A stretch of DNA of 64,000 nucleotides, taken from positions 682,001 through 746,000 of the forward strand of contig BBSY01000002.1 in NCBI GenBank assembly GCA_000974665.1, read 5' to 3'. Position numbers and translations under genes: made by a program. The notes under the pieces are model-generated. The model worked only from the letters and a program-made list of their open reading frames with translations. It was not told the origin of the DNA and did no database searches. The stretch comes from an alpha proteobacterium U9-1i (GTDB lineage: Bacteria; Pseudomonadota; Alphaproteobacteria; Caulobacterales; Aquidulcibacteraceae). Numbering within the stretch: position 1 is the stretch's first letter; every line of letters begins with the position of its first letter. Shown piece by piece: positions 12,273 through 61,216 of this stretch.

Positions 12273-12300
12273 GGGGGTGCTCCGATGATCAAACCACATT

Positions 12301-12400
12301 CGTCATCCCGGCTGACCGAAGGGAGAGCCGGGACCCAGGGATCAAAGGTCGCTTCGTTTGCCCTGGGTCCCGGATCACGCTCCGCGTGTCCGGGATGACG
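12301..12400. repeat. Nested palindromic repeat element (CGTCATCCCGG type)
   Basis: A 100-bp element with two nested inverted repeats. The outer arms CGTCATCCCGG (12301-12311) and CCGGGATGACG (12390-12400) are perfect, and the inner arms CCGGGACCCAGGG (12328-12340) and CCCTGGGTCCCGG (12361-12373) are perfect. It fills most of the gap between the divergent aldehyde dehydrogenase and trmB genes. Elements beginning CGTCATCCC and ending GGGATGACG are dispersed in many alphaproteobacterial genomes; that this is one of them is from general knowledge. It could form a cruciform, or a long RNA hairpin in the 5' leader of either gene. Confidence 0.85.
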
Positions 12401-12437
12401 GTTTCGTTCTATATGGCCCGATCAGCGACGGACACCA

Positions 12438-13208
12438 ATGGACCATCCGCCCCTCCGCACCTTCGGCCGCATGAAAGCCCGACCGCTCAAGCCACGCCAA
12501 CAGGCTTTGGTGGAGGAGCTGCTGCCGCACTTGGCTGTGCCGGCGGAGGGGATGATTGACATTGAGGCGCTGTTCTCCCCCTCCCCCATGGATCGACCTT
12601 TGGGGGAGGGGGCAGGGGGTGGGGTGAAACTCCGCGCGTCGAGCCTCACCCCGCCCCCCAACCCCCTCCCCTCGAGGGGAGGGGGAGCTGTCCTTGAAAT
12701 CGGCTTCGGCGGCGGCGAGCATCTCGTCGCGCAAGCCGCCGCACATCCCGAGCAACTTTTCATCGGCGCCGAGCCCTTCCTCAACGGAATCGGCTCATGC
12801 CTCCGCCACATTGAGGAAAGCGGCGTGCAGAACGTGCGCCTCTGGCATGGCGACGCCCGTGACGTGGTCGCGCGCCTGCCGGACGCCTCGCTGGACCGCT
12901 GCTACATTCTTTTTCCCGATCCCTGGCCGAAGCTGCGTCACCACAAGCGCCGCCTCATCCAACCCGATTTCCTGGCCGAACTCGCGCGCGTGCTGAAACC
13001 TGGCGCCGAGGTACGGTTCGCGACCGATTGGGCCAACTACGCCGAATGGACCTTGGACATGTTTCACAAGGAACCCCGCTTCACCTGGCTCGCCGAACGC
13101 GCCGACGATTGGCGCAAAGCTTGGGAAGGCCATGTGCCGACGCGGTATGAGCAAAAGCGCTTGGGCGATTGCGCGCCGGTTTGGCTTAGATTCAGGTTGG
13201 ACCGCTAA
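12438..13208 (+). CDS. trmB: tRNA (guanine-N7-)-methyltransferase with in-frame repeat insertion
   Basis: TrmB makes m7G46 in tRNA using SAM. The 256-residue product carries the family motifs LEIGFGGGEHL (SAM site, residues 86-96), FIGAEPF, DRCYILFPDPWPKLRHHKRR (the FPDPWPK..H.KRR signature) and a C-terminal TRYE..R segment. Unusually, residues about 47-84 are encoded by a palindromic repeat element at 12575-12687, giving a Pro/Gly-rich stretch between the N-terminal arm and the first Rossmann strand, where other TrmB proteins have only a few residues. The frame is kept through the insertion, so the gene looks functional. The ATG at 12438 is followed directly by an N-terminus rich in basic residues. 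Confidence 0.9.
   Translation: MDHPPLRTFGRMKARPLKPRQQALVEELLPHLAVPAEGMIDIEALFSPSPMDRPLGEGAGGGVKLRASSLTPPPNPLPSRGGGAVLEIGFGGGEHLVAQAAAHPEQLFIGAEPFLNGIGSCLRHIEESGVQNVRLWHGDARDVVARLPDASLDRCYILFPDPWPKLRHHKRRLIQPDFLAELARVLKPGAEVRFATDWANYAEWTLDMFHKEPRFTWLAERADDWRKAWEGHVPTRYEQKRLGDCAPVWLRFRLDR
12575..12687. repeat. CCCCCTCC/GGAGGGGG palindromic element inside trmB
   Basis: A 113-bp element with a hairpin at each end: CTCCCCCTCCCCC pairs approximately with GGGGGAGGGGG (12575-12612), and CCCCCTCCCCTCGAGGGGAGGGGG forms the 3' hairpin (12664-12687). The middle has GGGGGTGGGGTG facing CACCCCGCCCCCC. The same architecture occurs between rpsO and pnp at 21725-21855. Here it lies wholly within trmB and is translated in frame as about 38 residues. 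Confidence 0.85.
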
Positions 13209-13772: not shown

Positions 13773-13802
13773 AGCGGCGGGCCAAAAGCCCGCCGCTTTT
13801 TT
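13773..13802 (+). terminator. Rho-independent terminator or attenuator between lipoprotein gene and rimP
   Basis: A perfect 10-bp stem, AGCGGCGGGC / GCCCGCCGCT, with loop CAAAA and a run of six T residues. It closes the lipoprotein transcript. Because rimP begins directly behind it and no promoter is obvious in between, it may also act as an attenuator in the leader of the rimP-nusA-infB operon. Confidence 0.85.
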
Positions 13803-14481
13803 GTTACCGGTCGCCCGGTATTTTGGGAGCCCGCCGCTGCGGACCACGAACCCACTCGAAGAGCGCGTCGTCGCTCTCTTGGAACCGGACGCCGAGGCGC
13901 TCGGCTATCGGTTGGTGCGCGTGCGTCTGCTCGGCAACCGCCGCAAAACACTGCAGATCATGGCTGAGCGCATCAGCGACGGTGATTTCAACAGCGGCGA
14001 TTGCACCAAGCTGGCGCGCCGCGCCAACGAAGCGCTCGAACCGATCGAGTACGATAGCCTCGAAGTGTCGTCGCCCGGCATCGATCGCCCGCTGATGCGC
14101 ATCGAGGATTTCACGCGCTTCATCGGCCACATGGCCAAGCTTGAAACAACCGCGATGCTCGACGGGCAGAAGCGCTTCAAGGGCGAGATCGTGTCGGTTG
14201 ATGGCGACGTCATCTCCCTCAAGACCGAGCAGGGCGAGCCGAAGATCAAGTTCTCGGCGCTGCACGACGCCCGCCTCGTGCTGACAGACAAGCTGATCGA
14301 AGAAGATTTGCGGCGCGCGAAAGCCGTCGAACGTGATTTTCCTCCCCCGCTTGCGGGGGAGGTGTCGCCGCAGGCGACGGAGGGGGCGGCTGACGCTTCC
14401 CCCCTCAGTCATCGCGCTGCGCGCACTGACAGCTCCCCCGCGCGCGGGGGAGCAAACAAGACGAAGAGGAAAAACACATGA
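13801..14481 (+). CDS. rimP: Ribosome maturation factor RimP with repeat-encoded C-terminal tail
   Basis: RimP binds the 30S subunit during assembly. Family features are LEERVVALLEPDAEALGY, a GDCTKLARRANEAL segment, LEVSSPGIDRPL and a C-terminal SH3-like barrel (FKGEIVSVDGDVISL). The frame opens with TTG at 13801, but that codon lies in the T tract of the preceding terminator. An in-frame CTG at 13837, seven bases after GGGAG, gives a more natural N-terminus (RTTNPLEERV). From about codon 179 the frame runs through a palindromic element (14341-14451), adding a roughly 48-residue Pro/Ala-rich tail absent from typical RimP. The stop overlaps the nusA ATG as ATGA. Confidence 0.88.
   Translation: MLPVARYFGSPPLRTTNPLEERVVALLEPDAEALGYRLVRVRLLGNRRKTLQIMAERISDGDFNSGDCTKLARRANEALEPIEYDSLEVSSPGIDRPLMRIEDFTRFIGHMAKLETTAMLDGQKRFKGEIVSVDGDVISLKTEQGEPKIKFSALHDARLVLTDKLIEEDLRRAKAVERDFPPPLAGEVSPQATEGAADASPLSHRAARTDSSPARGGANKTKRKNT
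14341..14451. repeat. CCTCCCCCGC palindromic element in the 3' end of rimP
   Basis: The 5' hairpin CCTCCCCCGCTTGCGGGGGAGG (14341-14362, here 22 bp) and 3' hairpin CTCCCCCGCGCGCGGGGGAG (14432-14451) flank a middle with GTCGCCGCAGGCGAC and an inverted repeat around CAGTCATCGCGCTGCGC. It is the same type as the element at 61109-61216. It is read in frame as the last part of RimP. Confidence 0.82.
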
Positions 14482-21442: not shown

Positions 21443-21712
21443 ATGTCGATTTCAGCAGAGCGCAAATCCGCGCTCATTAAAGACAATGCGCAAGGTTCAA
21501 AGGACACCGGCTCGCCGGAAGTCCAGGTGGCTATCCTGTCCGAGCGCATCACCAATCTGACCGAGCACTTCAAGGCTCATAAGAAAGACAACCACTCGCG
21601 CCAAGGCCTTCTCAAGATGGTCTCGCAGCGTCGTCGGTTGCTCGACTATCTGAAGAACAACGACACGAAGCGTTACACCGCTTTGATCGAAAAACTGGGT
21701 CTGCGCCGCTAA
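21443..21712 (+). CDS. rpsO: 30S ribosomal protein S15
   Basis: An 89-residue S15 primary binder of the 16S rRNA central domain. Diagnostic stretches are [35 protein letters not shown] and [11 protein letters not shown]. It has GAGGAG eight bases before the ATG. It precedes pnp, the usual rpsO-pnp order, but here a palindromic element of about 130 bp separates the two. Confidence 0.98.
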
Positions 21713-21724
21713 GCGCGACCTGCT

Positions 21725-21855
21725 CCCCCTCCTCTTGAGAGGAGGGGGCGGGGGGTGGGGCGAGGCCCCACCGTTGCCAGCTTACGCAACAGCCGAAATT
21801 CCGAAGCGTGGAGTTTCACCCCACCCCCTAACCCCCTCCTCTCAAGAGGAGGGGG
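21725..21855. repeat. CCCCCTCC/GGAGGGGG palindromic element between rpsO and pnp
   Basis: A 131-bp element with CCCCCTCCTCTTGAGAGG..GGGGG at the 5' end (21725-21748) and a matching hairpin at 21832-21855. Between them lie GGGGGGTGGGG and CCCCACCCCC facing each other. It is the same architecture as the element inside trmB. In the transcript it would form strong hairpins in the rpsO-pnp spacer, where RNase III processing controls pnp in E. coli. An effect on pnp is inference. Confidence 0.85.
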
Positions 21856-59980: not shown

Positions 59981-61099
59981 ATGCGGCTGACGATCGAGCG
60001 CTCGGCGCTCCTGAAAGCGCTCAACCACGTGCAAAGCGTCGTCGAACGACGCAACACCATCCCGATTTTGTCGAACGTGCTGATGTCGGCGCAAGGCGAC
60101 ACACTCAAACTCACCGCCACCGACCTCGACATCGAGATTTCCGAAGCCGCGCCCGCCGAGGTGGAGCGGGCAGGGCAAACAACCGCGCCCGCGAGCTATC
60201 TCTACGACTTCGTCCGCAAGTTGCCGGAAGGCGCGCCGGTGAAGCTCGACGTTTCGGGCGACGATCCGCGACTTTTCATCTCCGCCGGCAAGTCGCGCCT
60301 GCATCTGCCGATCCTGCCTGCGGGCGATTTCCCGTCGATGCCGTCGGATGGGTTTGAAACTCGCTTCGATGTCGAGCCGACCGAGCTCGGCCGCCTCATC
60401 GACAAAACCCGCTTCGCAATCTCCACTGAAGAGACGCGCTACTATCTCAACGGCATTTTCATGCACACCGTGCAACAAGACGGCGCCACAGTGCTGCGCG
60501 CCGTCGCGACGGACGGTCACCGTCTGGCGCTTGCCGATTCAGATGCGCCAAAAGGCGCGCAGGGCATGCCTGGGGTGATCGTGCCGCGCAAAACCATCAA
60601 CGAGCTGAAGCGTTTGCTTGATGACGCCGCTGATCATGTCGAGGTCTCGGTGTCTTTGCAGAAAATCCGCTTCGCACTCGGCGACGCTGTGCTGACCTCG
60701 AAACTCATCGACGGCTCGTTCCCGGAATACGCCCGCGTCATTCCGAAGGGCAATTCGAAGAAGCTCGTGCTCGACAACAAGGTTTTCGCTGAAGCCGTCG
60801 ATCGCGTCGCCACCGTCTCCGCCGAGCGTTCGCGTTCGGTGCGCCTCGCCATCGAGAAGGACAAGGTGACGCTCACCGTCAACAATCCCGACGCTGGCGT
60901 CGCCACCGAAGATCTACCGGCCGAGTATGCCGACGACAGCCTCGAGATCGGGTTCAACGCGCGCTACCTGCTCGACATCGCCGGCCAGGTCGAAGGTGTG
61001 AACGCCGTGTTCGAACTCGCGGACTCCGGCTCGCCGACGCTCGTCCGCGACGAAGCCGACGACCGCGCACTCTACGTGCTGATGCCGCTGAGGGTGTGA
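59981..61099 (+). CDS. dnaN: DNA polymerase III sliding clamp (beta subunit)
   Basis: A 372-residue beta clamp with three repeated domains. Segments: ALNHVQSVVERRNTIPILSN (domain 1), FAISTEETRYYLNGIFMH (domain 2), RAVATDGHRLAL and the C-terminal YVLMPLRV, which is typical of the clamp. It tethers DNA polymerase III to DNA and recruits repair and regulatory proteins, including those that inactivate DnaA-ATP. It is 247 bases from dnaA behind a terminator, so it has its own promoter. Confidence 0.97.
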   Translation: MRLTIERSALLKALNHVQSVVERRNTIPILSNVLMSAQGDTLKLTATDLDIEISEAAPAEVERAGQTTAPASYLYDFVRKLPEGAPVKLDVSGDDPRLFISAGKSRLHLPILPAGDFPSMPSDGFETRFDVEPTELGRLIDKTRFAISTEETRYYLNGIFMHTVQQDGATVLRAVATDGHRLALADSDAPKGAQGMPGVIVPRKTINELKRLLDDAADHVEVSVSLQKIRFALGDAVLTSKLIDGSFPEYARVIPKGNSKKLVLDNKVFAEAVDRVATVSAERSRSVRLAIEKDKVTLTVNNPDAGVATEDLPAEYADDSLEIGFNARYLLDIAGQVEGVNAVFELADSGSPTLVRDEADDRALYVLMPLRV

Positions 61100-61108
61100 T
61101 GGACTTTT

Positions 61109-61216
61109 CCTCCCCCGCTAGCGGGGGAGGTGCGAGCGAAGCGAGCGGAGGGGGAGCATCCTTCGGCCTTTGCACCGCCCCCCTCTGGTATCGCGCCGCG
61201 CGCGCCGACGGCCCCT
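61109..61216. repeat. CCTCCCCCGC palindromic element between dnaN and recF
   Basis: A perfect 5' hairpin CCTCCCCCGC / GCGGGGGAGG (61109-61130, loop TA) leads into GCGAGCGAAGCGAGC and a degenerate 3' half ending near CCCCTCCGCGAGCGG. It matches the element in the tail of rimP in type and length. Confidence 0.75.

Follow-up and report, generated by a model that had tools for sequence, protein, structure and literature searches.

Results

A palindromic element lies within the trmB reading frame

The window, a 64,000-nucleotide stretch of the genome of the alphaproteobacterium U9-1i (contig BBSY01000002.1, positions 682,001 to 746,000), contains on its forward strand the trmB gene (12438–13208), which codes for tRNA (guanine-N7)-methyltransferase, a protein of 256 amino acids. 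Inside the gene and on the same strand, at positions 12575–12687, lies a palindromic repeat element of the REPIN-like doublet type, which we named class I. The element is open in the trmB frame, and the reading frame continues unbroken across it. The GC-rich palindrome itself covers positions 12577–12685 and is composed of three forward-strand stems: a left hairpin (12577–12612, 12-bp arms and a 12-nt loop), an inner stem (12615–12658, 13-bp arms GGGGGTGGGGTGA and TCACCCCGCCCCC separated by an 18-nt spacer), and a right hairpin (12662–12685, 10-bp arms and a 4-nt loop). A sequence-only reading of this DNA had described a double hairpin that is translated in the trmB frame; the palindrome and its open frame are real, but the stems number three, not two. 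The calculated fold of positions 12570–12692 has an energy of -87.3 kcal/mol, compared with a mean of -63.5 kcal/mol for shuffled sequences (z -5.54; none of 200 shuffles equalled it). A search of Rfam with the element returned hairpin look-alikes only, all of which scored below the gathering scores. A further inverted repeat, of the CGTCATCCCGG...CCGGGATGACG type, was seen by eye at positions 12299–12402, between an aldehyde dehydrogenase gene and trmB.

The element contributes 39 residues to TrmB, at a place where uninserted relatives (for example, that of genome G057) have about 7. The earlier estimate of about 38 added residues was too high as a net gain, which is about 32. The Pfam domain Methyltransf_4 (residues 85–241, E 9.1e-47) is whole, and the motifs on both sides of the element are intact, as the sequence-only reading had stated. 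Relatives of the TrmB core with solved structures, identified by sequence, are PDB entries 3dxx, 2fca, and 7nyb. An AlphaFold model of TrmB (53 sequences) has a mean pLDDT of 88.3 overall; the block means are 62, 51, and 58 for residues 51–60, 61–70, and 71–80, respectively, and 87–98 for the blocks past residue 80. The opening strand of the Rossmann core is formed by residues 84–88. According to the model, the element is located in a loop that is predicted to be disordered, directly before the SAM-binding strand. Since a loop of this kind should be permissive, the enzyme is probably still made.

Copies of the element across the genome

A BLAST search of the 4.05-Mb genome that holds the window (G000) with the trmB element yielded 61 pieces at E<=1e-3, which were assigned by eye to 22 places; a further place, L217, was seen separately. 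The 18 class I loci that were printed have in common a C-rich and a G-rich arm and a GGGGG(T/C)GGGGTGA-like inner stem, with a variable spacer between them. By a script pattern, 16 of 20 class I loci are doublets and four are singlets. Over the script-read class I loci, one third of the six frames are open.

Open reading frames were listed for 21 loci (20 of the 22 places, and L217), and 20 of them were scanned against Pfam; the places C1:102820 and C2:1462676 and other ORFs fell outside the scan, and the survey concerns one repeat family. Most of the approximately 22 places appear to be intergenic, and in-frame intragenic copies were found, among the 20 ORFs scanned, in three genes, which were named from domains and motifs: trmB, rsmE (Methyltrans_RNA, 3e-37), and mtaB (Radical_SAM and UPF0004). 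In addition, a copy of the family forms the C-terminal tail of a DUF559 protein, another immediately precedes the likely start of a pseudouridine-synthase gene, and yet another lies within the upstream portion of an open frame coding for an alpha/beta hydrolase. The remaining class I copies examined are seemingly intergenic or fall in ORFs without a Pfam domain. A class I copy is indeed present, as the sequence-only reading had stated, between rpsO (21443–21712) and pnp, at about 21722–21855 (strand unassigned; gene names by eye). In two loci, the element's right arm, GGGGAGGGG (L006, about 1637–1645) and GAGGAGGGGG (L008, about 1540–1555), is located just 5' of the apparent start codons of genes for an FAD-binding enzyme and a prephenate dehydrogenase, respectively; because of this proximity, the right arm may act there as a ribosome-binding site. 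Clusters of palindromic copies, spaced by about 0.1–1.5 kb, were observed at L204, L205, L206, L207, and L208, in genomes G000, G013, G014, and G003.

The window contains a second palindromic element (14337–14453, forward strand), which encodes the C-terminal tail of the rimP ORF (13801–14481). It was picked up by a repeat search and by its hairpins, and is matched by a class III query (see below) at G000:C2:696341-696386. The RimP domains stop at residue 162 of 226, ahead of the element-encoded tail. A copy of the rimP-type repeat at positions 61105–61154 adjoins an ORF that ends at 61099 and was recognized by eye as a sliding-clamp-like DNA polymerase subunit.

Distribution of inserts at the trmB site

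The trmB gene was matched in 29 of 30 genomes of the genus and in 59 of 60 genomes in a search of the family, G010 giving no match. The site of the element was read in 29 genomes of the genus, in four of the sister genus g3, and in 24 other family members; G047 and G048 were missed by the motif used. The named relatives in this survey are mostly metagenome bins. By eye, a recognisable element peptide is present in 22 of the 29 genus genes, including those of G006 and G019, where a contig ends inside the element. Among the other seven, G005, G016, G025, and G026 have a short remnant, and G023, G024, and G028 have none. The frame is continuous through the site in 26 of the 29 genes; the exceptions are the two genes cut by contig ends and that of G022, where the frame is broken and nusA of the same assembly is also split by a stop. 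An element-like peptide was recognized by eye in all four genomes of the sister genus, two of which carry remnants with no fold signal (z near 0), and in none of the 24 other family members. The fold z at this position was -2 or lower in 19 of 29 genomes of the genus, one of four in the sister genus, and one of 24 elsewhere in the family; for a few genomes of this survey, the folded stretch was cut or its limits came from a fallback rule. No insert at the site was found in 35 further alphaproteobacterial rows (L081–L137) of a 53-row alignment. In species with a remnant or no insert, TrmB is otherwise matched over its full length.

That relatives might have the segment as ordinary, non-repetitive sequence can be ruled out: the segment is a repeat of the genome, and its peptide is found in 22 of the 29 genus genes and in none of the 24 outside. 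The distribution of element-like sequence over the genus and its sister suggests that the site has been occupied since around the time of their split. We dropped the view that G024 was never inserted, as a DNA tree of trmB alone joins G024 with the element-bearing G011 (95/82). The G024 sequence SPAEGPLV is similar to SPARGEGLV at the end of the element; judging by this likeness and the position beside G011, G024 has likely undergone a near-complete loss of the insert.

Turnover of element classes at the trmB site

The trmB inserts were sorted by eye into class I (the type found in the window), class II, class III, and others. For every class, the genomes that bear it in trmB also have copies of it at other places, among the matches listed. 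Places matched by the class II query (the complete 100 rows) were compared with those matched by the class III query (the 150 rows listed). Among these listed matches, at least 34 overlaps had the two queries on opposite strands; same-strand overlaps numbered 0. Most overlaps are about 37 nt long, and five, among the matches listed, reach 60 nt or longer. Direct comparison of the inserts, forward versus reverse, gave 22 versus 63 for G020 and G011, 26 versus 58 for G020 and G015, and 43 versus 62 for G018 and G011. By both comparisons, class II and class III are one family in opposite orientation.

To place the classes on a phylogeny, a tree was built from the cores of TrmB, NusA, RsmE, and MtaB (1299 columns; 18 of 35 inner branches starred, eight open); it superseded an earlier tree from the TrmB core and NusA, the resolution of which was poor. 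The class of the insert differs between the close relatives G004 and G008 (100/97), between G013 and the pair G001 and G022 (99/96), and between G003 and the pair G006 and G020 (clade 100/99), and one 100/100 clade mixes no insert, remnant, class II, and class III. The fewest class changes, as a bare count without a chance level, are five over 15 genomes, and seven after G004 and G041 are added.

Inserts and cores were also compared pairwise in the 12 genomes whose insert is full and of class I, II, or III. In same-class pairs the insert exceeded the core in nucleotide likeness in 16 of 19 cases (means 0.83 versus 0.77), while in different-class pairs this was so in nine of 47 (means 0.72 versus 0.77). 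Insert identity is inflated because the stems are runs of G and C. A separate comparison with fourfold sites of the core in 19 chosen pairs had pointed to unusual conservation of the insert and was dropped, since inserts of different classes also win it (46 of 47). Descent can be recognized at the site as well. The class I inserts in trmB of G000, G009, G012, and G014 have short spacers that appear to share a common ancestry. New insertion would therefore not account for every pair of inserts, and descent and renewal are both at work. The inserts of G011 and G015 are 91% alike across 141 nt. Between G009 and G014, one pair of the inner stem was seen by eye to have changed from a wobble to a mismatch, which makes drift visible too.

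Inserts in rsmE and mtaB

The rsmE gene was matched in 29 of 30 genomes of the genus, and the insert site was read in 27. Ten genomes have a fold z of -3.8 or lower at the site; the next is G006 (-3.68), with a site of normal length. By eye, at least three kinds can be told apart among the folded inserts: class I in G000 and G023 (matched by the class I query), class II/III in G004 (matched by the class III query), and a palindrome of the GGACCGCCGGCG type in G011, G013, and G018. For mtaB, 28 loci were found; the site could be extracted in 13, and 15 were unreadable with the anchors used. The 13 sites include five folded inserts (z -3.3 to -8.9), seven short sites, and one ambiguous site. Relatives thus have other palindromes, or none, at the rsmE and mtaB sites. 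Uninserted mtaB genes have about 10 codons at the position of the element, and a clean insertion that left a visible target duplication is therefore not what is seen.

Discussion

We consider it highly probable that the trmB segment is an in-frame copy of a palindromic repeat, which is accommodated in a permissive loop, at a site that has been rewritten since, and that selfish spread is the probable cause. The element consists of two inverted stem-loop units and a spacer, like a REPIN or BIME, with its other copies mostly intergenic, and is hosted by the TrmB loop that joins the N-terminal helices to beta-1 of the Rossmann fold. The site shows several forms of rewriting: shrinkage to short remnants, loss in frame, a switch of class, and reversal of the same family; these could have arisen by new insertion, by inversion across the terminal repeats, or by gene conversion with other copies. 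The sites in rsmE and mtaB behave in much the same way. The likely driver would be selfish spread combined with survivorship at tolerant loops, rather than a benefit to the enzyme.

The common spacers of the four class I inserts and the close likeness of the G011 and G015 inserts are also what a single ancient insertion, since altered by mutation only, would leave behind; the classes would then be diverged descendants, with no later arrival of elements. Common origin is likewise the explanation favoured for RPE-4, RPE-6, and RPE-7 by the authors of the R. japonica study, who still allow for hotspots (PMC3767692). A single insertion would not be expected to place class II and class III in opposite orientation in close relatives, to provide every class with extra copies elsewhere in the genomes bearing it in trmB, among the matches listed, or to make inserts more alike than cores predominantly within a class, and we regard it as rather unlikely. 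An ordinary Pro/Gly-rich linker, or an assembly artefact, can hardly be the answer: GC-rich hairpins do assemble poorly, and the contigs of G006 and G019 stop at the site, but the same DNA is repeated genome-wide and occurs in many separate assemblies, with the frame intact in all but the three genes named above.

A very unlikely alternative is that the element is kept for a benefit, its RNA hairpins or its Pro/Gly loop aiding the gene or the enzyme, for example through mRNA stability or through cis regulation by an RNA-modifying enzyme. Conservation is higher in paired than in unpaired columns (0.91 versus 0.65, 0.84 versus 0.59, and 0.89 versus 0.66 for classes I, II, and III, respectively), pairs changed on both sides number 3, 3, and 4 (in 5, 3, and 4 sequences), and all three interior copies found in the window's own genome are in RNA-modification genes. 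The same pattern would arise without function in trmB from conservation of stems family-wide, and the coincidence of three RNA-modification genes was noticed post hoc. Moreover, broken pairs occupy 8 of 165, 11 of 120, and 4 of 160 cells in classes I, II, and III, and TrmB is otherwise fully matched in the three species that lack the insert and in the four that have only a remnant. Unlikely, too, is the broader view of trmB, rsmE, and mtaB as standing landing sites that differing palindromic elements would repeatedly re-seed in frame. On this view, a preference for RNA-modification genes would recur across Alphaproteobacteria, the Rickettsia list likewise including trmB and tRNA ribosyltransferase-isomerase, because the mRNA hairpin or the encoded loop affects the function of these enzymes.

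Palindromes that code for protein are familiar from Rickettsia (PMC2229807), and the analogy with them, drawn from the sequence alone, holds for in-frame insertion into a gene. The accompanying supposition that such an insertion was undescribed for this gene was mistaken: Table 1 of PMC3767692 places RPE-6 (of R. japonica, R. conorii, and R. africae) and RPE-7 (of R. felis) inside tRNA (guanine-N(7)-)-methyltransferase. According to the same paper, the genes with Rickettsia palindromic elements also include that for tRNA ribosyltransferase-isomerase, and the group of element changes at one locus among orthologues, for which hotspots were weighed against common origin. As with RPE-4, RPE-6, and RPE-7, the palindromes are in frame in conserved genes and belong to differing groups per species at one locus; we count as a further likeness the solvent-exposed positions reported for those elements (PMC3767692). 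Unlike them, as judged from their published description, the elements studied here are GC-rich REP-like doublets of the Hyphomonadaceae, for which reversal of orientation at a single site is seen.

REPs are known inside genes of several bacteria, including tRNA pseudouridine synthases in several species, and differing REPs occur at about one recB site in two Xanthomonas species (PMC3733652). REP doublets within ORFs are a trait shared with those GTAG/CGTC REPs; no GTAG or CGTC tag was seen by eye at the family ends in 18 loci, and the main text of that paper makes no mention of Caulobacter. An inverted pair of units with a less conserved spacer, scattered intergenically, is shared with the REPINs of PMC3116915. 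The latter are linked to RAYT genes, whereas here the sole Y1_Tnp (PF01797) match has no hairpin of the family in the surrounding 3318 bases. This RAYT-type gene (L141:1459-2109, 216 aa) stands alone; a RAYT may act from elsewhere in the genome. Enterobacterial RU elements (PMC2759123) are similar as small repeats with open frames within annotated genes, and are another type of element. No description of the present family was found in titles and abstract openings of the literature on in-frame palindromes of Alphaproteobacteria, REPs at orthologous sites, TrmB, translated repeats, and Terricaulis.

Judged by its sequence, the trmB case is a known kind of intragenic palindrome, presumably translated, in which turnover of the site is unusually clear. 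It adds a new lineage, an apparently undescribed repeat family, three RNA-modification genes in one genome, and clear evidence for turnover of both class and orientation at one site. A single position in a housekeeping enzyme can thus be rewritten in frame by differing mobile-type repeats, opposite orientations included, as is seen here outside Rickettsia and in a genus sampled at about 30 species. The question of hotspot versus divergence raised by the Rickettsia authors (PMC3767692) thereby becomes testable, and the genus provides natural TrmB variants with very unequal loop lengths at one site.
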